A stretch of DNA of 64,000 nucleotides from Promicromonospora sukumoe 327MFSha3.1 (lineage in GTDB: Bacteria > Actinomycetota > Actinomycetes > Actinomycetales > Cellulomonadaceae): contig NZ_ARQM01000012.1 in NCBI RefSeq assembly GCF_000385135.1, forward strand, positions 62,001 to 126,000, in the 5' to 3' direction. Shown piece by piece: positions 9,776 through 15,705 of this stretch (position 1 is its first letter; the number at the start of each line of letters is the position of its first letter). A program made the position numbers and the translations under genes. The notes under the pieces were generated by a model that did no database searches, had not been told where the DNA came from, and was given only the letters and a program-made list of their open reading frames with translations.

Positions 9776-10282
9776 TCAGACGCGCACGACCCTGGCTGCC
9801 CCGGCGCGGTCGTACGGCGTGCGCCCCGCGCCCGCGAACAGGGTGCCGACCCAGACGATCGGCAGCACGTAGGCCGCCACGGTGAGGGCCACGAGCCCCG
9901 GCCCGACCGTCGTCGACCCGACGAGGCCGATCGCCGCGGCGTGCCCGATCGTCCAGGGCAGCGCGACCTTGAGCGCGTTCCGGAGCAGCGCCCGGGCGAA
10001 CGTGAGCCGCCCGCCGTCCCGGGCGCCGACGACCTTCAGCCCCAGCACGCGCTTGCCGATCGTCGCCTGCCGCGGGCCCGACTCGAGGACGGCGAGGAAG
10101 ATCGTCAGCGGCAACGCCGTCAGCAGCGCGGAGACCACGTTCGTGGTCACCGCGGACCACCCCGTCGTCACGCCGGCGAGGTACAGCGGGATGCCGACCG
10201 CGGCGAGCAGCACGAGCCACACCAGGAAGCAGAGCCAGTCGACGAGCCACGCCACGATGCGTCGCCAGGCCTCGGAGTTCAC
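9776..10282 (-). CDS. RDD-family membrane protein
   Basis: A 168-residue protein with the RDD signature: the Arg and Asp residues near the N-terminus (RRIVAWLVDWLCFLVWL), a transmembrane helix, then GPRQATIGKRVLGLKVV before the second and third helices. RDD proteins are small membrane proteins, some shown to act in sodium or proton exchange; the function of most is unknown. The GTG start lies only 7 bases downstream of a TAGCGT -10 box, so the mRNA is probably leaderless and independent of the sulfur operon that ends 18 bases upstream. Confidence 0.85.
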   Translation of the reverse strand: MNSEAWRRIVAWLVDWLCFLVWLVLLAAVGIPLYLAGVTTGWSAVTTNVVSALLTALPLTIFLAVLESGPRQATIGKRVLGLKVVGARDGGRLTFARALLRNALKVALPWTIGHAAAIGLVGSTTVGPGLVALTVAAYVLPIVWVGTLFAGAGRTPYDRAGAARVVRV

Positions 10283-10300: not shown

Positions 10301-11653
10301 TCAGAACGCCCGCAGGTTGGCCCGCAGGCCGCCGTCGGCCCACTCGGTGCGCAGGATGCCGCGCCGCCGCAGGATCGGGACCAGCTCGTCGAGCGTGCGG
10401 TGCACGGTGACGGGGTGCAGGTCGCCCCACAGCAGCACGCCGTCGTTGCCCCACTCCCCCAGCTCCTCGATGAGGTCGGCCAGCTCGCCGGCCGTCCCCA
10501 CCCAGCCGGAGCGGTCGGCGATGCGGCCCAGGCGGGCGAGCCCACCGAGCAGCACGCGCAGCGGCGTGGTGGCGAGGTCGTGCTCGCCGACCAGCCGCTT
10601 GATGGACCCGTGCGAGACGTGGTCGCCGAACAGGCCCGTGGGCAGCGGCTTGTCCAGGTCGAGCGCCGTCAGGTCGGTCTCCAGGTCACTGGACTGCTGC
10701 TCGGCGATGCGCAGCAGCGTCGCGTCGTCCGGGTTCGCCGACGCCACCACCAGCCGGTCGGCCTCCTGCGGGCTGGACACGAGCACGGGTTTGATGGCGA
10801 ACAGCACCTTGACGTGCTCCTGGGAGCGCCCGGCCGCGCGGGCCGCGGCGTGCACCCTGGCCCGGTAGTCGCGCACGCTCGACTCGGTGAGCGGCGCGAG
10901 TGCGAGCTGCACGTCGCTGTTCGCGCCGGCGAACGCCAGGCCGCGGCCGGAGCCGCCCGGCGAGACGACGACGGGCTCGCCGTCGGCCCCGCCGTCGAAC
11001 GGGAGCGCGTTGAGCGGGCCGTCGAACGCGTAGTGCTCACCGCGGTGCCGCACGGGACGCAGCAGGCCGCCGTCGGCGTACCGCCCGCCGGTCCGCGCTC
11101 CGTCCGGTCCGACGACGCCGGGGTCGGCGACCAGCGCGCCGTCGTCCCACGAGCGCCACAGCGAGCGGACGCCGTCGAGCCACTCCTCGGCGCGGTCGTA
11201 CGCGGCGTCGTGCCCGAGCGGCGGCGCGGCGGAGAAGTGCCGCGCGCTGCCGGTGTCGGTCACGAGGTTGAGGCCGAGCCGGCCGCCCGAGAGGTGCTGG
11301 AGCGTCGCGAGCTGCCGCGCCCCGGTGTAGGGCAGCACGGCGGCCGGGTTGACCGTCGGCACGATGCCGAGGTGCTGTGTCGCCGCGAACAGGTACGGGG
11401 CCAGCAGCAGCGGGTCGTGCTTGGGGCCGCCGAACGCCTGCCGCACGCGCAGGTCGATCGTCTCGGGGCCGCCGAGCGACGGCGCGTCCTCGATGATCAG
11501 CAGGTCCACGCCCGCCTGCTCCAGCGCGCGGGCCGACTCGACGTAGAGGTCGGGCCGGGTCCAGTCGTAGTTCCAGTCCAGGTGGTCGTGGCCCCAGCCG
11601 TGCGGCCCGAAGCCGCGGGCCAGGAACCAGCCGAGGTGCTGCTGGCGGGTCAT
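10301..11653 (-). CDS. LLM-class flavin-dependent monooxygenase
   Basis: A 450-residue luciferase-like monooxygenase with WFLARGFGPHGWGHDHLDWNYDWTRPDLYVE at the N-terminus, ALEQAGVDLLIIEDAPSLGG, HLGIVPTVNPAAVLPYTGARQLATLQHLSGGRLGLNLVTD, and VVVSPGGSGRGLAFAGANSDVQ. These match the NtaA/DszA class. Its ATG overlaps the stop of the MetY-type gene by four bases (ATGA), so it is translationally coupled and last in the leader-peptide operon. The likely role is oxidative release of sulfur from an organic compound, feeding the sulfhydrylase encoded just upstream. Substrate unknown. Confidence 0.87.
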   Translation of the reverse strand: MTRQQHLGWFLARGFGPHGWGHDHLDWNYDWTRPDLYVESARALEQAGVDLLIIEDAPSLGGPETIDLRVRQAFGGPKHDPLLLAPYLFAATQHLGIVPTVNPAAVLPYTGARQLATLQHLSGGRLGLNLVTDTGSARHFSAAPPLGHDAAYDRAEEWLDGVRSLWRSWDDGALVADPGVVGPDGARTGGRYADGGLLRPVRHRGEHYAFDGPLNALPFDGGADGEPVVVSPGGSGRGLAFAGANSDVQLALAPLTESSVRDYRARVHAAARAAGRSQEHVKVLFAIKPVLVSSPQEADRLVVASANPDDATLLRIAEQQSSDLETDLTALDLDKPLPTGLFGDHVSHGSIKRLVGEHDLATTPLRVLLGGLARLGRIADRSGWVGTAGELADLIEELGEWGNDGVLLWGDLHPVTVHRTLDELVPILRRRGILRTEWADGGLRANLRAF

Positions 11654-13017
11654 GGTGTCTCCTTGCGTGGGGTGCCGGCGGCGCCCGGCTCGGCGGCACG
11701 GCGCGCGGCCGCGAGCCCCCGGTCGAGGTCGGCGATCAGGTCGGGCAGGTCCTCGATGCCCACCGACAGCCGCAGGGTGCCCGGATGGATGCCGGAGGCG
11801 GCCCGCTCGGCAGGGGTGCGCAGCACGTGGCTGGTGCTCTCCGGGTGCAGCACCAGGGAGCGGACGTCGCCGATGTGGGTCATGTGCGTGAACACCTGCA
11901 CGGCCTCGACCAGCGCACGTGCCGCGGGGACGCCGCCGTGCAGCGTGAAGGTGAACACGGAGCCTTGGCCGTCCGGCAGGTACCGCTTGGCCAGCGCGTA
12001 CGACTCGCTGGAGTCCAGCCCGGAGTAGTCCACGGAGGCCACCTCGGGCCGGAACGCCAGCCAGCGCGCGACCTCCAGGGCAGACGCGCTCTGCCGGGCG
12101 ACCCGCAGCGACAGGGTCTCGATGCCCTGGCCCACGAGGAACGCGTTCAGCGGCGACGGCGTCGGGCCGAAGCGCGGCGCCACCGTCTCGCGCAGGTAGG
12201 CCAGGCGGGCGAGCCCGCCGTGCCGGTCGGCGACGCTCGGCCCGCCCGTGCGGGACGGCGCGACCAGGTGCGGGTACAGCGCGCCCGAGGTGCGCGCGTC
12301 GAACGTCCCGGAGTCGACGACGACGCCGCCCAGCACCGAACCGTGGCCCGCGAGGAACTTGCTGGCGGAGTGCACCACGACGTCGGCGCCGTGCTCGATC
12401 GGGCGTAGCAGGTACGGCGTCGCCAGTGTGTTGTCCACGACCAGCACCAGCCCGTGGGCGTGCGCGACGTCGGCCACGGCGGCAAGGTCGGGCAGGTCGT
12501 TGCGCGCGTTCGGGATGGACTCCAGGAACAGCACGCGCGTCTCGGGCCGGATGGCGCGCTCCCAGGCGGCCGGGTCGGCGGCGTCGTCCACGAAGTCGGC
12601 CTCGACGCCGAGGCGCGGCAGGTTGTCCAGGAGCAGCCCGCGCGTGCCCTCGTAGATGCTGGACGCGGCGAGCACGCGCTGCCCGGCCTCGACCAGGCCG
12701 AGCAGCGCGACCGTGACGGCCGCCTGCCCGCTGGCCAGGAACAGGGCGTCGGCGCCGCCCTCCAGGGCGGCGATCCGCTGCTCGACGGCGGCCGTGGTCG
12801 GGTTTCCGGTGCGGGTGTAGGCGAAGCCCTCGCCCGCGCCGAAGTGGCCGGCGGCCTGCTCCCACTCCTCGAACTCGAACCCGGCCGTCAGGTAGACGGG
12901 CGTCGCGCGCGGGACCACGTGGGCCGACGGCGCGGGGCCGGGCGCGCCGGTGGCCCGCCCGGCGTCGTCCCGCCCGGTGCTGCGCGCGTGCACCTGCCGG
13001 GTGGCGAAGCCCGTCAT
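11650..13017 (-). CDS. O-acetylhomoserine sulfhydrylase-type PLP enzyme
   Basis: A 455-residue Cys/Met metabolism PLP enzyme. Landmarks are FATRQVHA at the N-terminus, YTRTGNPTTAAVEQRIAALEGG, ASGQAAVTVALLGLV, VVDNTLATPYLLRPIEHGADVVVHSASKF with the PLP lysine Lys220, and the C-terminal HPESTSHV plus GTLRLSVGIED. This fits the MetY branch (O-acetylhomoserine aminocarboxypropyltransferase), which adds sulfide to an activated homoserine, rather than MetB, because of the length and the HPxSTSH block. It overlaps the rhodanese gene upstream and the LLM gene downstream by four bases each, so oxidation, sulfur handling and sulfur fixation are co-translated. Confidence 0.9.
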   Translation of the reverse strand: MTGFATRQVHARSTGRDDAGRATGAPGPAPSAHVVPRATPVYLTAGFEFEEWEQAAGHFGAGEGFAYTRTGNPTTAAVEQRIAALEGGADALFLASGQAAVTVALLGLVEAGQRVLAASSIYEGTRGLLLDNLPRLGVEADFVDDAADPAAWERAIRPETRVLFLESIPNARNDLPDLAAVADVAHAHGLVLVVDNTLATPYLLRPIEHGADVVVHSASKFLAGHGSVLGGVVVDSGTFDARTSGALYPHLVAPSRTGGPSVADRHGGLARLAYLRETVAPRFGPTPSPLNAFLVGQGIETLSLRVARQSASALEVARWLAFRPEVASVDYSGLDSSESYALAKRYLPDGQGSVFTFTLHGGVPAARALVEAVQVFTHMTHIGDVRSLVLHPESTSHVLRTPAERAASGIHPGTLRLSVGIEDLPDLIADLDRGLAAARRAAEPGAAGTPRKETP

Positions 13018-13367
13018 GGCGCGGCGGTCGGCTCGGCCTCGGTGGCGGGCAGGCCGGCCTCCTTCCAGGCGGGGAAGCCGCCGTCGACGTGCGAGACGTC
13101 GGTGTAGCCGCGGGCGGCCAGCGCCTCGGCGACCGGGCCGGAGCCGTTGATCGAGCCGCACACGATCACGACGGGCGTGTCGAGGGTGATCGCGGGGTTG
13201 TCGGACGGGCCGAACAGCGCGTCGAGGTCGTTCCGGTCGGCGAGCGTGGCGCCCGGGATCTCGCCCGCCGACGCGCGGCCCGCGGCCGAGCGGACGTCGA
13301 TCAGGAGGGCGCCGCCGGCGACCTTGGCGCCCGCGGCGTCGGGGGTCTGCAGCTCAGGGGTGGTCAT
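13014..13367 (-). CDS. Rhodanese-like single-domain protein
   Basis: A 117-residue rhodanese domain. It has the entry motif LLIDVRSAAG and a phosphocysteine-type active loop CGSINGSG with Cys70, followed by the closing block ARGYTDVSHVDGGFPAWKEAGLP. It would carry sulfane sulfur as a persulfide between donor and acceptor. GAGGAG precedes the ATG. Positioned between an LLM monooxygenase and the MetY-type sulfhydrylase, it may shuttle sulfur or detoxify sulfite and cyanide. The active loop differs from the CRxGxR loop of many rhodaneses, so the sulfur acceptor is unclear. Confidence 0.9.
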   Translation of the reverse strand: MTTPELQTPDAAGAKVAGGALLIDVRSAAGRASAGEIPGATLADRNDLDALFGPSDNPAITLDTPVVIVCGSINGSGPVAEALAARGYTDVSHVDGGFPAWKEAGLPATEAEPTAAP

Positions 13368-13397: not shown

Positions 13398-14567
13398 TCA
13401 GGCGCTCAGCAGGCGGCCGGTGGGCAGCTCGCGGACGTCCGTCGCGGCGTCGGGCAGACCGAGCGAACCGCGCAGCGTGGTCTCGGTCCGCTCGGTGCGG
13501 AACAGGCCCGCGTGCTGGAGCGCGGGCACCAGGTGGTCGGTGATGGTGTCAAGGTCCGAGCTGAGCGAGGAGGGGCGCAGCAGGAACCCGTCGACGGCGC
13601 CGACCGTGGTCCAGTCCGCGATGAGGGTGGCCAGCTCGTCGGGGGTGTCGGCGACCACGAGCCCGTCGCCCATGGGGGCGGTACCCTCGAGCGCCTCGAC
13701 CAGCTCGAGCCGGGCACGCGCACCGGCCCGCTCGGTGGAGAGGACCACGTAGACCTCGGCGAGCACCCGCACGTCCTGGGGGTCGCGCCCGGCGGACAGC
13801 GCCGCGTCCCGCACGAGCCGGCGCAGCCGCACCGCGTGCGCGGCGTCGGCCACGGCGATCCGCGCGACGTCGGCGGTGCGGCCGGCCAGCGCCGCGCTGG
13901 CCTCGGAGCGCACGCGCACCACGACGGGCGGCGGCGTCTGCGGCAGCGGGGTGCCGCCGTCGGCGGGCCGGCCGCGGACGGCGAACCGGATGCCGTCGTG
14001 GTCCACGCGGAACCGGCCCTCGGCGTCGAGCTCGACGGCGCCCGCGCCGCTGCCGGGGCGGCCGGTCCAGACCTGGGTCACCGACTGGATGCCGAGCTCG
14101 ACGCGGGTGGCCCAGGCGTCGTCGGACTCGGGCAGGGTGCCCTGCCGCACGGCCTGCCAGCCGGCCCGGCCGCTGCTGGCGCGGTCGATGCTGCTCAGGG
14201 CGACGGCGGCGTGGGCCGCCTCGACGTGCACCGTGTCGACGGCGGCGACCAGGCCGATCCCGGCCGTGACCCGTGCGGCGCGGGCGGCGGCGACGGCCGT
14301 GTCGAGGCGGCCGGTGACCTGGCTGCGGCCGGGGTGGAGCAGGAAGCCCTCGTCGAGGCTCACGAAGTCGAGCAGGCCGCGGTCGGCGGTCCGCACCAGG
14401 TGCAGGAACCGCTCGCCGTCGAACGGGCGCGGGGCTATCGGTCCGCGTGCCCGGTGTGAACCGGGGCGGGCGCCGGCGGAGGTGAGGTCCACGCCGAGCA
14501 CGACGGGACGGGACGCGAGGGCGGTGGCGGTGGCGGTCAGGGACGTGGGCTGCGGCGGGTACGGCAC
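13398..14567 (-). CDS. LLM-class flavin-dependent oxidoreductase
   Basis: A 389-residue luciferase-like protein, the first enzyme of the sulfur operon. It starts with GTG preceded by CGGAG. Landmarks are FLHLVRTADRGLLDFVSLDEGFLLHP, TAGIGLVAAVDTVHVEAAHAAVALSSIDRASSGRAGWQAV and a C-terminal TLRGSLGLPDAA, closely parallel to the end of the forward-strand LLM at 7119. The two are probably distant paralogues. It likely uses FMNH2 from the SsuE/flavin reductase pair. The upstream region carries a Cys-rich leader ORF, a long untranslated stretch and several hairpins, which suggests attenuation in response to cysteine supply. Confidence 0.84.
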   Translation of the reverse strand: MPYPPQPTSLTATATALASRPVVLGVDLTSAGARPGSHRARGPIAPRPFDGERFLHLVRTADRGLLDFVSLDEGFLLHPGRSQVTGRLDTAVAAARAARVTAGIGLVAAVDTVHVEAAHAAVALSSIDRASSGRAGWQAVRQGTLPESDDAWATRVELGIQSVTQVWTGRPGSGAGAVELDAEGRFRVDHDGIRFAVRGRPADGGTPLPQTPPPVVVRVRSEASAALAGRTADVARIAVADAAHAVRLRRLVRDAALSAGRDPQDVRVLAEVYVVLSTERAGARARLELVEALEGTAPMGDGLVVADTPDELATLIADWTTVGAVDGFLLRPSSLSSDLDTITDHLVPALQHAGLFRTERTETTLRGSLGLPDAATDVRELPTGRLLSA

Positions 14568-14604
14568 GGCGGGGCTCCGTTCGGGCTGCGGCAGCGCGAC
14601 GGCA

Positions 14605-14663
14605 CCCCGGGTGGTCCTCGGCCGCGTGCGGGTGCACGACGGCGCCTGGGGTCACCCGAGGGG
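14605..14663 (-). promoter_or_regulatory. Hairpin between leader peptide and sulfur operon
   Basis: CCCCGGGTG (14605-14613) pairs with CACCCGAGGGG (14653-14663) with one bulged base, roughly 140 bases after the leader-peptide stop and 40 bases before the first LLM gene on the minus strand. A second, mutually exclusive pairing (GTGACCCC with GGGGTGC) is possible in the same stretch. This is where an attenuator would be expected, but I cannot compute its stability. Confidence 0.4.
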
Positions 14664-14803
14664 CGTGGCTGCCGGGAGGCGGGAGAGAGACGTCCGGTCA
14701 GGAACGTGAAGGCCTGAGTGCGGCCGGGCTCGGCGTGGGGGCCGAGAGCAGGTCCGCGCGGCTGGGCCCGTGGCGGCCGGTCAGCGCGCGGGTGTGGTGC
14801 GCG

Positions 14804-14905
14804 TCAGCGACAACACATGCTCGGGCGCGGGGCGGCACAGGCCGGCGCGCAGACGTTCCGGGACGGCAGGGACACGTGGACGGCGGGGGCAGCGCTCCGG
14901 GTCAT
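14804..14905 (-). CDS. Cys-rich leader peptide, 33 residues
   Basis: A short ORF starting at ATG 14905 with a near-ideal ribosome binding site (GTGAGGAGAACGACG directly upstream). The peptide starts MTRSAAPAVHVSLP, has cysteines at positions 19, 23, 31 and 32, and ends Met-Cys-Cys-Arg before TGA. It precedes the LLM-rhodanese-MetY-LLM operon by 236 bases on the same strand. Actinobacteria are known to place polycysteine short ORFs before sulfur-assimilation operons, where ribosome pausing at Cys codons under cysteine shortage changes downstream expression. The same role is inferred here. It could also be shadow coding, but the strong Shine-Dalgarno and terminal Cys-Cys argue against chance. 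Confidence 0.75.
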   Translation of the reverse strand: MTRSAAPAVHVSLPSRNVCAPACAAPRPSMCCR

Positions 14906-14953
14906 CGTCGTTCTCCTCACCTGCTCGCCCATCGGCGAGCGACGCGTGTTGTC
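14809..14953 (-). promoter_or_regulatory. Possible 5'UTR pairing with the Cys-Cys codons
   Basis: On the minus-strand transcript GACAACAC (14953-14946) in the 5'UTR is perfectly complementary to GTGTTGTC (14816-14809), which covers the two terminal Cys codons. A 7-bp hairpin (14923-14929 with 14934-14940) lies immediately before the Shine-Dalgarno. A ribosome moving over or halting at the Cys codons would break the 8-bp pairing. The match is short and could be chance. Confidence 0.35.
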
Positions 14954-15109
14954 ACCGCCGGCGGCGGTGGACCTGGTCCTCACCCGGGGCACCCACCCGC
15001 GCGGGGGGTTGCCGTCCGACCAGCCGGGGCTTCGCGTCGGAGCTCATGACCTGTCGAGGCTTTCTACATCTTTCCGATCGGGTTGGTGCGGTAGGTCTCG
15101 ATGTCCAAG

Positions 15110-15138
15110 AAGATACGAATGGAACCCATAGAAGTCAA
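15110..15138 (-). promoter_or_regulatory. Promoter of the leader-peptide/sulfur operon
   Basis: On the minus strand TTGACT (15138-15133) and TATCTT (15115-15110) are separated by exactly 17 bases in a locally AT-richer segment. This is one of the best sigma-70-type matches in the window. It would start transcription near 15103, giving about 200 bases of leader before the Cys-rich ORF. Confidence 0.7.
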
Positions 15139-15186
15139 CGATCTTTGCCCAGATCTCACATCCCGGGATCTGGGGGGTGCGTGGGC

Positions 15187-15257
15187 GTGCGCTTCTACCC
15201 AGTCATTGGGCCCGAAATCACGTGGTTTTCGGGCCCAATGACTGGGCAGAAGCGCAC
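15187..15257. repeat. Long hairpin element A
   Basis: Arms 15187-15217 and 15227-15257 form a 31-bp stem with one mismatch and a 9-base loop. The left arm begins GTGCGCTTCTACCCAGTCAT and shares its first 27 bases exactly with the left arm of element B at 15635. It lies about 50 bases upstream of the sulfur promoter, so it would stop read-through from the right, but its sharing with element B suggests a repeated element. Confidence 0.85.
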
Positions 15258-15343
15258 TTTGGACTGGCCTCCGTGCCGGTGTGAGTGCCTTGTCACCTCG
15301 GCAGGAGGGTCGGTGGCGGGCTAGCCCGGGCGGAGTCGGCGGG

Positions 15344-15397
15344 GTCAGCGAGCTCGGTCGGGTGAGCGAGCTCGGTCGGGTCAGTGAACTCGGTCGG
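15344..15397. repeat. Three tandem 18-bp units
   Basis: Three consecutive 18-base units of the form GTCAGCGAGCTCGGTCGG (15344-15361, 15362-15379, 15380-15397), the second and third with one and two changes. The third unit runs into the left arm of the 28-bp palindrome that follows. No convincing ORF covers them. Confidence 0.8.
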
Positions 15398-15448
15398 TTG
15401 CATTGAGACCGGTCCATCAGTGGACCGGTCTCAATGCAACCGACCGAG
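15389..15448. repeat. 28-bp perfect palindrome with tetraloop
   Basis: Arms 15389-15416 and 15421-15448 pair perfectly around the loop TCAG. The stem contains CATTGAGACCGGTCCA and is flanked by the tandem 18-mers on the left and one inverted partial unit on the right. It has no adjacent gene end, so it is not an obvious terminator. Confidence 0.8.
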
Positions 15449-15503
15449 CTCGCAAGACCGGCCTCAGCAACCAGCCGAGCTCGGCGCTCGCGACTGCCGC
15501 GGG

Positions 15504-15548
15504 CGGCGGGCAGCGGCAGCGGCAGCGGGCAGCGGGCAGCGGGCGGGG
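15504..15548. repeat. GGCAGC microsatellite-like tract
   Basis: A run of 6- and 7-base units (GGCAGC and GGGCAGC) repeated about six times in the non-coding interval downstream of the GH92 gene. It looks like simple-sequence expansion. Nothing else is visible in it. Confidence 0.6.
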
Positions 15549-15634
15549 CCGACTGGCCGCGGGCGGGGGCCGACGGCGGACCGGCCGGCACCGGACCCGC
15601 GATCACGCCAAGGCTCGGTGCCAGGAACGCGAAA

Positions 15635-15705
15635 GTGCGCTTCTACCCAGTCATTGGGCCCGGAACCAGCGTCATTCCGGGCCTAATGGCTGGGTAGATG
15701 CGCAC
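15635..15705. repeat. Long hairpin element B, GH92 terminator
   Basis: Arms 15635-15664 and 15676-15705 form a 30-bp stem with two positions that become G-U in RNA and one true mismatch. The left arm is identical to that of element A for 27 bases while the right arm has diverged. It starts 22 bases after the GH92 stop codon, so it probably terminates that gene. Confidence 0.8.

Follow-up and report, generated by a model that had tools for sequence, protein, structure and literature searches.

A predicted SAM-IV riboswitch stacked on a cysteine-terminated leader ORF ahead of an organosulfur-type operon in Promicromonospora, and the recurrence of such leaders among SAM-IV loci

The mRNA leader of an LLM-rhodanese-MetY-LLM operon in Promicromonospora sukumoe 327MFSha3.1 contains two predicted sensors, a SAM-IV riboswitch and a short upstream open reading frame (uORF) which ends in cysteine codons. 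Judged from sequence, this two-sensor leader is real, conserved and recurrent, and it probably acts as a SAM-gated, cysteine-sensing attenuator, that is, as a two-input mRNA leader, a reading to which we assign a probability of about 0.6. The anatomy of the leader, its conservation, its reading frame, its codon bias and an enriched hairpin at the uORF stop codon are established. The initial annotation of the 64,000-nucleotide stretch of DNA that was analysed (the window) had proposed regulation through Cys-tRNA charging alone, which is at best half of the story, given the SAM-IV riboswitch (15051-14941) directly upstream. A broader formulation, which we put forward at slightly short of even odds, is that SAM-IV aptamer, Shine-Dalgarno-led uORF ending in UGU cysteine codons and stop-codon hairpin make up a composite RNA device recurrent in Actinomycetes, a two-metabolite gate which would open sulfur-scavenging operons only when SAM and Cys-tRNA are both low, and in which the target of the riboswitch would be a sensor ORF and not a gene.

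All elements of the leader lie on the minus strand, in the mRNA order promoter-like site, SAM-IV aptamer, hairpin, Shine-Dalgarno sequence, 33-codon uORF and 236-nt spacer (14568..14803), followed by the LLM-rhodanese-MetY-LLM genes. The promoter-like site, TTGACT-17-TATCTT at 15110..15138, about 60 nt before the aptamer, is a predicted site from a consensus scan, with 9 of 12 consensus matches (shuffles mean 0.0). The aptamer (14941..15051) belongs to the SAM-IV family by its covariance-model match, which covers model positions 1-116 of RF00634 and scores 80.4 bits where the gathering threshold is 38. Between it and the Shine-Dalgarno sequence stands a hairpin, GCTCGCC-GAT-GGGCGAGC (14923..14940), whose loop varies while its stem is maintained in the genus alignment. 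The Shine-Dalgarno sequence GAGGAG (14913..14918) is invariant in 8 genus sequences and lies 7 nt from an ATG at 14905, which begins 35 nt behind the predicted aptamer; the ORF finder places the start of the frame at a GTG at 14992 (62 aa), and the Shine-Dalgarno sequence belongs to the ATG. Translation of the uORF (14804..14905) from 14905 to 14804 gives MTRSAAPAVHVSLPSRNVCAPACAAPRPSMCCR-stop, with cysteines at residues 19, 23, 31 and 32, terminal cysteine codons TGT TGT (14815-14810) and the stop codon TGA (14806-14804), so that the 33-codon ORF first described for this place, with its properly spaced GAGGAG, its four cysteines and its end in Met-Cys-Cys-Arg-stop, is confirmed. The aptamer, the Shine-Dalgarno sequence and the upstream promoter-like site all speak against a leaderless ORF of the mycobacterial polycysteine type. 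A simple consensus scan of positions 14400-15700 returned no intrinsic-terminator-like site, so the arrangement lacks this mark of a classical terminator/antiterminator attenuator.

The uORF is real and conserved. Of the 13 genomes of the genus, seven, the window's own included, contain a relative of the first LLM protein with an E value of 1e-60 or lower, and an eighth Promicromonospora locus was found through a string search; the SAM-IV aptamer and an in-frame uORF are present in all eight genomes where the locus was found. Loss of the ORF or of its cysteine codons in close relatives, which the initial annotation had named as grounds for abandoning its proposal, was therefore not what was seen. 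The uORF ranges from 32 to 41 codons within the genus, with indels that keep the frame, and the sequence and length of the spacer between uORF and gene vary freely. The genus alignment shows little or no variation in the aptamer tail, the Shine-Dalgarno sequence and the codons for AVHVSLP. The terminal cysteines are also kept, as CC in seven of the eight peptides and as SC plus a later cysteine in L009; Cys 19 and Cys 23 of the window peptide are not conserved in the genus, and thus the end of the four-cysteine peptide holds as a conserved feature but the number four does not. Among the 15 LLM relatives that reach this E value, 13 have a SAM-IV match over the cut-off upstream (one of them, L016, has only one cysteine in its uORF), and such an upstream match was not found for L015 and L017.

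The evolution of the peptide is uneven along its length. When 29 uORF codons were aligned in seven sequences, 11 were identical, 2 differed only silently and 16 changed the amino acid, compared with 57 identical, 68 silent and 62 non-silent among 187 aligned LLM codons. The codon comparison and the invariant regions thus indicate that the middle of the peptide drifts, that its start is held at the nucleotide level, and that its end keeps cysteine. Plain Ka/Ks taken over the full length of the peptide, which had been anticipated as support, consequently fails as an argument, and the case for translation rests on frame-keeping, the Shine-Dalgarno sequence and the terminal cysteines of the aligned sequences.

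The segment AVHVSLP, encoded at window positions 14864-14884, is unchanged in all eight genus peptides, and its seven consecutive codons show no nucleotide change at all in the genus sequences. The absence of any silent change from these codons in seven sequences, when the longest identical run in the 187 LLM codons is 4, suggests a constraint at the RNA level. The same segment could also be read as part of a nascent-peptide arrest sequence, in which the body of the peptide would stall the ribosome on a ligand and the cysteines would belong to the arrest motif instead of serving as hungry codons; the identity of AVHVSLP and the RRHVDL-like motif in leaders of other families favour this explanation. 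We consider it improbable, because the lack of silent change in AVHVSLP points to the RNA, and because short peptides such as MRMCCCRH and MRRSQTRCCCR have little in common save their terminal cysteines.

The initial annotation had recommended a search for Cys-terminal, Shine-Dalgarno-led short ORFs ahead of related operons, and leaders of this kind do recur. The 185 SAM-IV loci examined form a chosen and not a random sample, in which 105 loci belong to the window's family and 80 to further families in its order and class. They comprise the window, 12 loci reached by way of the LLM protein, another 2 in the window's own genome, the 30 best loci of the family search together with 60 further loci among the matches listed, and, from the 126 rows of the order search and the 61 rows of the class search, 60 and 20 rows respectively, mostly of weaker score. 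At 42 of these 185 loci, a Shine-Dalgarno sequence precedes a short ORF that has two or more cysteines among its last 12 residues, compared with a mean of 1.2 and a maximum of 7 in 40 dinucleotide shuffles, and with 4 on the reverse strand; many of the loci are closely related, so that the shuffle controls overstate their independence. The 42 loci span nine families (31 in the window's family, 11 in eight others), and their peptides, of 8 to 56 residues, share little save ends such as CCR, CRCR and CCCR, with the last cysteine as the penultimate codon in 25. The window leader has all of the features of this class: a Shine-Dalgarno sequence, a short ORF, and cysteine codons which are clustered at the 3' end and conserved in frame.

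The reading frame of these leaders can be evaluated independently of how the ORFs were chosen. Of 186 loci, 29 have a Cys-Arg-stop motif at a distance of 10 to 220 nt downstream of the aptamer, and in 28 of the 29 it is in frame with, and open from, a start that was picked irrespective of frame (the remaining one is without a start); the swapped control motif, Arg-Cys-stop, occurs at 2 loci of 186. The cysteine codons of the 42 uORFs are biased towards TGT (TGT 101, TGC 38; outside the window's family TGT 23, TGC 14) compared with those of direct-type SAM-IV genes (TGT 42, TGC 316). The stop codon is TGA in all 42, and the next base is C in 32 and G in 10. These results bear on whether TGTTGTCGCTGAC is an untranslated RNA motif which lies in an open frame by chance. 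In favour of this, part of the set conserves the nucleotide string very strongly, and the string could fold into a hairpin, but the frame test (28 of 29), the frame-keeping indels, the invariant Shine-Dalgarno sequence of the genus and the occurrence of differing sequences with similar coding ends make this explanation very unlikely indeed. A search of 13 genomes for the exact string TGTTGTCGCTGAC, as a handle on a second Cys-uORF locus in the genus, returned nine places, two of which are this leader (L203, L204); the other seven (L196-L202) have no in-frame start codon before the string and no Rfam match, and five of them share one context, which has the look of coding DNA.

Not every short ORF behind a SAM-IV aptamer ends in cysteine. 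When the best Shine-Dalgarno start was chosen automatically at each of the first 105 loci, 67 loci gave an ordinary gene, 37 gave a short ORF and 1 had no start, and 6 of the 37 short ORFs are not Cys-terminal, from which it follows that a uORF behind a SAM-IV element can exist without a role for cysteine. Two short ORFs (L016, L106) have one cysteine each. At four other loci (L063, L068, L086, L111), very short ORFs have no cysteine near the end and stops which overlap possible starts of the next gene, the ORFs that follow being ABC-permease-like or flavin-reductase-like by eye; from their layout these four are possible translation-coupling uORFs.

The cysteine-terminated uORFs themselves might be translation-coupling ORFs or encode a small functional peptide, gated by the riboswitch in the manner of the magnesium riboswitch and Rv1805A, and the cysteines would then have a role at the protein level; PMC12810186 and PMC11260477 provide precedents. 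The spacers of 100 to 307 nt (measured to automatic starts, some of which are misassigned) are ill-suited to tight coupling, sequence conservation is low save at the end, and a bias towards UGU would be meaningless at the protein level, all of which render this explanation a little less probable still than peptide arrest. The loci at which the automatic next-gene start is wrong include L007 and L009.

The position of the uORF fits the preferred reading of a SAM-gated attenuator: its start follows the aptamer by 10 to 62 nt, a distance at which most direct-type genes also begin. Both forms are found close together. In genus g9 the SAM-IV element precedes LLM genes directly at L067, L080 and L085 and through a uORF at L013 and L071, so that the uORF resembles a removable module, and the two forms coexist in one genus and in one genome (L067 and L090 of G082; L019 and the window). 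L019, a second and stronger SAM-IV element in the window's genome, is of the direct type, with a 472-codon ORF immediately behind it, and a third element, L021, is weaker (53.1 bits); by the same tests, neither has a Cys uORF.

The intergenic region upstream of the leader also contains repeated elements, which are recorded here as separate observations. Palindromes at 15192-15252 and 15640-15700 share the core CTTCTACCCAGTCATTGGGCC, which is present in 57 copies in the window's own genome (29 forward, 28 reverse, at most 3 mismatches; control 0). Many of these cores form facing pairs 40 nt apart, and one such pair (C11:160782-160842) precedes the strongest SAM-IV element of the genome (161009) by about 170 nt. 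A second, different palindrome (CGGTTGCATTGAGACCGGTCCA...TGGACCGGTCTCAATGCAACCG) occupies 15390-15447 in the same intergenic region.

How the aptamer might control initiation of the uORF was addressed by folding and pairing calculations. The mean unpaired fraction of the uORF Shine-Dalgarno sequence at 38 loci was 0.60 with the aptamer tail free and 0.56 with the tail occupied, and no clear difference that would indicate simple masking of the Shine-Dalgarno sequence by the tail was seen, whether in 96 direct leaders or in the 38 with a uORF. The aptamer tail (GACAACAC) can pair with the cysteine codons (GTGTTGTC), and this pairing is striking in the window and several genus relatives and is present in the RNAalifold consensus, but it is not general, since permuted pairings are equally good at 33 loci (P 0.66); the mean z of tail-to-Cys complementarity is 2.2 in 8 genus sequences (window 0.86, L009 -1.4) and -0.1 in 35 others, and by this calculation such pairing is a possibility for part of the genus only. 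For pairing of the Shine-Dalgarno sequence with the cysteine codons, permuted pairings were no worse (P 0.73).

The open appearance of the uORF Shine-Dalgarno sequence, with a free and with an occupied aptamer tail alike, is what would be expected if two independent sensors were arranged in series, with the SAM-IV element acting on transcription or later steps, the Cys uORF forming a separate attenuator, and initiation of the uORF not being gated. PMC8269248 reports, for Streptomyces clavuligerus, a premature transcription unit that has a predicted SAM-IV element, which is in keeping with this arrangement. The start of the uORF at 10 to 62 nt behind the aptamer, in the range of the direct-type genes, suggests that the uORF took over as the target of the riboswitch, and we regard independent sensors as unlikely, though as the most serious of the alternatives.

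The stop codon of the uORF tends to lie within a hairpin. In the window this hairpin (14792..14816) is imperfect and weak (-7.8 kcal/mol, p 0.12, longest unbroken stem 4), and in the seven other genus sequences it has 5 to 9 pairs. Across 43 loci, hairpins that place the stop codon inside the loop or at its edge have a mean unbroken stem of 5.33, compared with 4.00 for shuffled flanks (sd 0.21, maximum 4.60 of 300) and with 4.71 for flanks exchanged between loci (maximum 5.30 of 300), the swapped-flank control covering this 43-locus set only. A reduced set of 30 loci, which still includes some relatives, gives 4.87 against 4.00 (maximum 4.83). Much of the excess comes from Promicromonospora (6.88 against 4.18, 8 sequences), and examples of different sequence include GTTGTCGC-TGACC-GCGACAAC (L203), GCTGGTC-TGA-GACCAGC (L133) and TGCCGC-TGA-GCGGTA (L172). 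The spacer beyond the stop contains more C than G at all 42 uORF loci, but this also holds for 70 of 87 direct-type spacers; C-richness as the sign of a Rho site is therefore present without being specific, and base composition is a weak argument for Rho.

For the mechanism of the SAM-gated, cysteine-sensing attenuator we infer that the aptamer binds SAM and that the uORF senses Cys-tRNA, and likewise the direction in which each input acts and the step of attenuation. The predicted SAM-IV riboswitch would report S-adenosylmethionine, the usual seat of its gene start being occupied by the start of the uORF, and the terminal cysteine codons of the uORF would report the charging of Cys-tRNA. Initiation at the uORF would be expected to fall when SAM is plentiful, and the uORF would be translated when SAM is short. 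If SAM were short and cysteine sufficient, the ribosome would reach the stop codon and depart, the stop hairpin would re-form, and the message would be attenuated. If both were short, the ribosome would stall on the UGU codons, where it would cover the 5' arm and loop of the hairpin, as a departed ribosome would not, together with the stretch just past the stop, and the LLM-rhodanese-MetY-LLM genes would be expressed. Attenuation would take place in the spacer, most likely, as a first guess, by Rho-dependent termination.

The operon has the order that was initially given for it. An LLM-family (luciferase-like) monooxygenase-like protein of 389 aa (13398..14567; PF00296, 55.4 bits) is followed by a rhodanese-domain protein of 117 aa (13014..13367; PF00581, 47.6 bits), a MetY-like Cys/Met-metabolism PLP enzyme of 455 aa (11650..13017; PF01053, 369.4 bits; best NCBIfam match PRK07812, below cut-off) and a second LLM-family protein of 450 aa (10301..11653; PF00296, 93.8 bits with a shortened 385-aa query), all on the minus strand and with 4-nt overlaps that link the rhodanese, MetY-like and second LLM genes. 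An RDD-family gene (9776..10282, minus strand; PF06271, 62 bits), separated by an 18-nt gap, is possibly the last member of the operon. Both LLM proteins match TIGR03860 below its cut-off (the second as the shortened query), and cleavage of C-S bonds by these proteins, which the initial annotation assumed, is a family-level guess from their domain matches.

The proposal of a conserved, in-frame leader ORF with terminal cysteines ahead of an organosulfur-type operon is thus borne out, and the gene set, which had been considered unusual for such a leader, is indeed of the organosulfur type but is not a lone oddity, as varied sulfur genes follow leaders of this kind elsewhere (LLM, ABC-transporter, MetY-like, sulfur-transporter and CysD genes). 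Ten proteins encoded behind Cys uORFs were scanned, and all are compatible with sulfur uptake or metabolism, with the LLM and ABC matches being to broad families: they include five LLM-family proteins, a family-5 solute-binding protein, a Cys/Met-metabolism PLP enzyme, an ABC ATPase (best NCBIfam match MetN, below cut-off), a sulfur transporter (Sulf_transp, 352.6 bits; TsuA models below cut-off) and a CysD just over the TIGR02039 cut-off. Both the window leader and those at other loci are accordingly found where a Cys leader would be looked for, ahead of sulfur or cysteine genes.

Stacked sensors suggest that bacteria can make a simple two-signal decision within one leader, and we offer the hypothesis that methionine-side and cysteine-side supply would be weighed against each other before costly organosulfur scavenging starts. 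The presence of direct and uORF forms in one genus and genome makes the contribution of the uORF testable by comparison, and the arrangement explains why many SAM-IV elements are followed by short ORFs that are not annotated.

The window peptide is a Cys leader peptide by its anatomy in the sequence, as distinct from curated-family membership: neither it nor its L005 relative matches NF042934, NF042933 or NF042936. Four SAM-IV leaders from other families (L120, L137, L181, L189), which were picked by look and of which L137 and L189 are outside the 42 Cys-uORF loci, match the putative leader peptide NCBIfam NF042934 above its 27-bit cut-off and match the Cys-rich leader families NF042936 or NF042933 below their cut-offs; their peptides share an RRHVDL/RRHIDL/RRLHIDL-like motif.

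Several known systems resemble parts of the window leader. The mycobacterial polycysteine leader ORFs (Canestrari et al. 2020, as cited in PMC9094748 and PMC13236596) are likewise short ORFs of cysteine codons ahead of supposedly cysteine-responsive genes, but they are leaderless, according to the title of that paper, whereas the window ORF stands behind a SAM-IV aptamer and a strong Shine-Dalgarno sequence. Leader peptides with runs of cysteine were predicted in 2005 for actinobacterial cys and cbs operons (Seliverstov et al., PMC1262725), and in the relevant passages they share with the window the cysteine-codon runs near the stop and the lack of a terminator hairpin, the authors having proposed Rho; they differ in their operons, and no riboswitch appears in what PMC1262725 describes of its Cys leaders. 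Leaders that combine a riboswitch with a small ORF ahead of an operon, as in the window, are described in Mycobacterium tuberculosis for B12 (PMC11260477) and magnesium (PMC12810186, in which Rho-dependent termination at Mbox-uORF2/Rv1805A is demonstrated); their ligands are different, and the relevant passages of these two papers describe no amino-acid sensing by the uORF. The direct-type SAM-IV riboswitch, such as the one ahead of the cysteine desulfurase gene SLIV_26975 (in a passage of PMC8079986), belongs to the same aptamer family but has its gene immediately behind the aptamer and no uORF. The tandem attenuators of Salmonella mgtCBR, as outlined in PMC3641672, also provide two leader inputs for one operon, but both inputs are short ORFs, and no SAM-IV aptamer figures in that outline. 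A combination of SAM-IV riboswitch and Cys uORF was not found described in the titles, abstract starts and relevant passages of the open-access literature searched. Riboswitch-uORF leaders and Cys-codon leader peptides are each known; here they are found stacked, with the uORF in the place of the riboswitch target.
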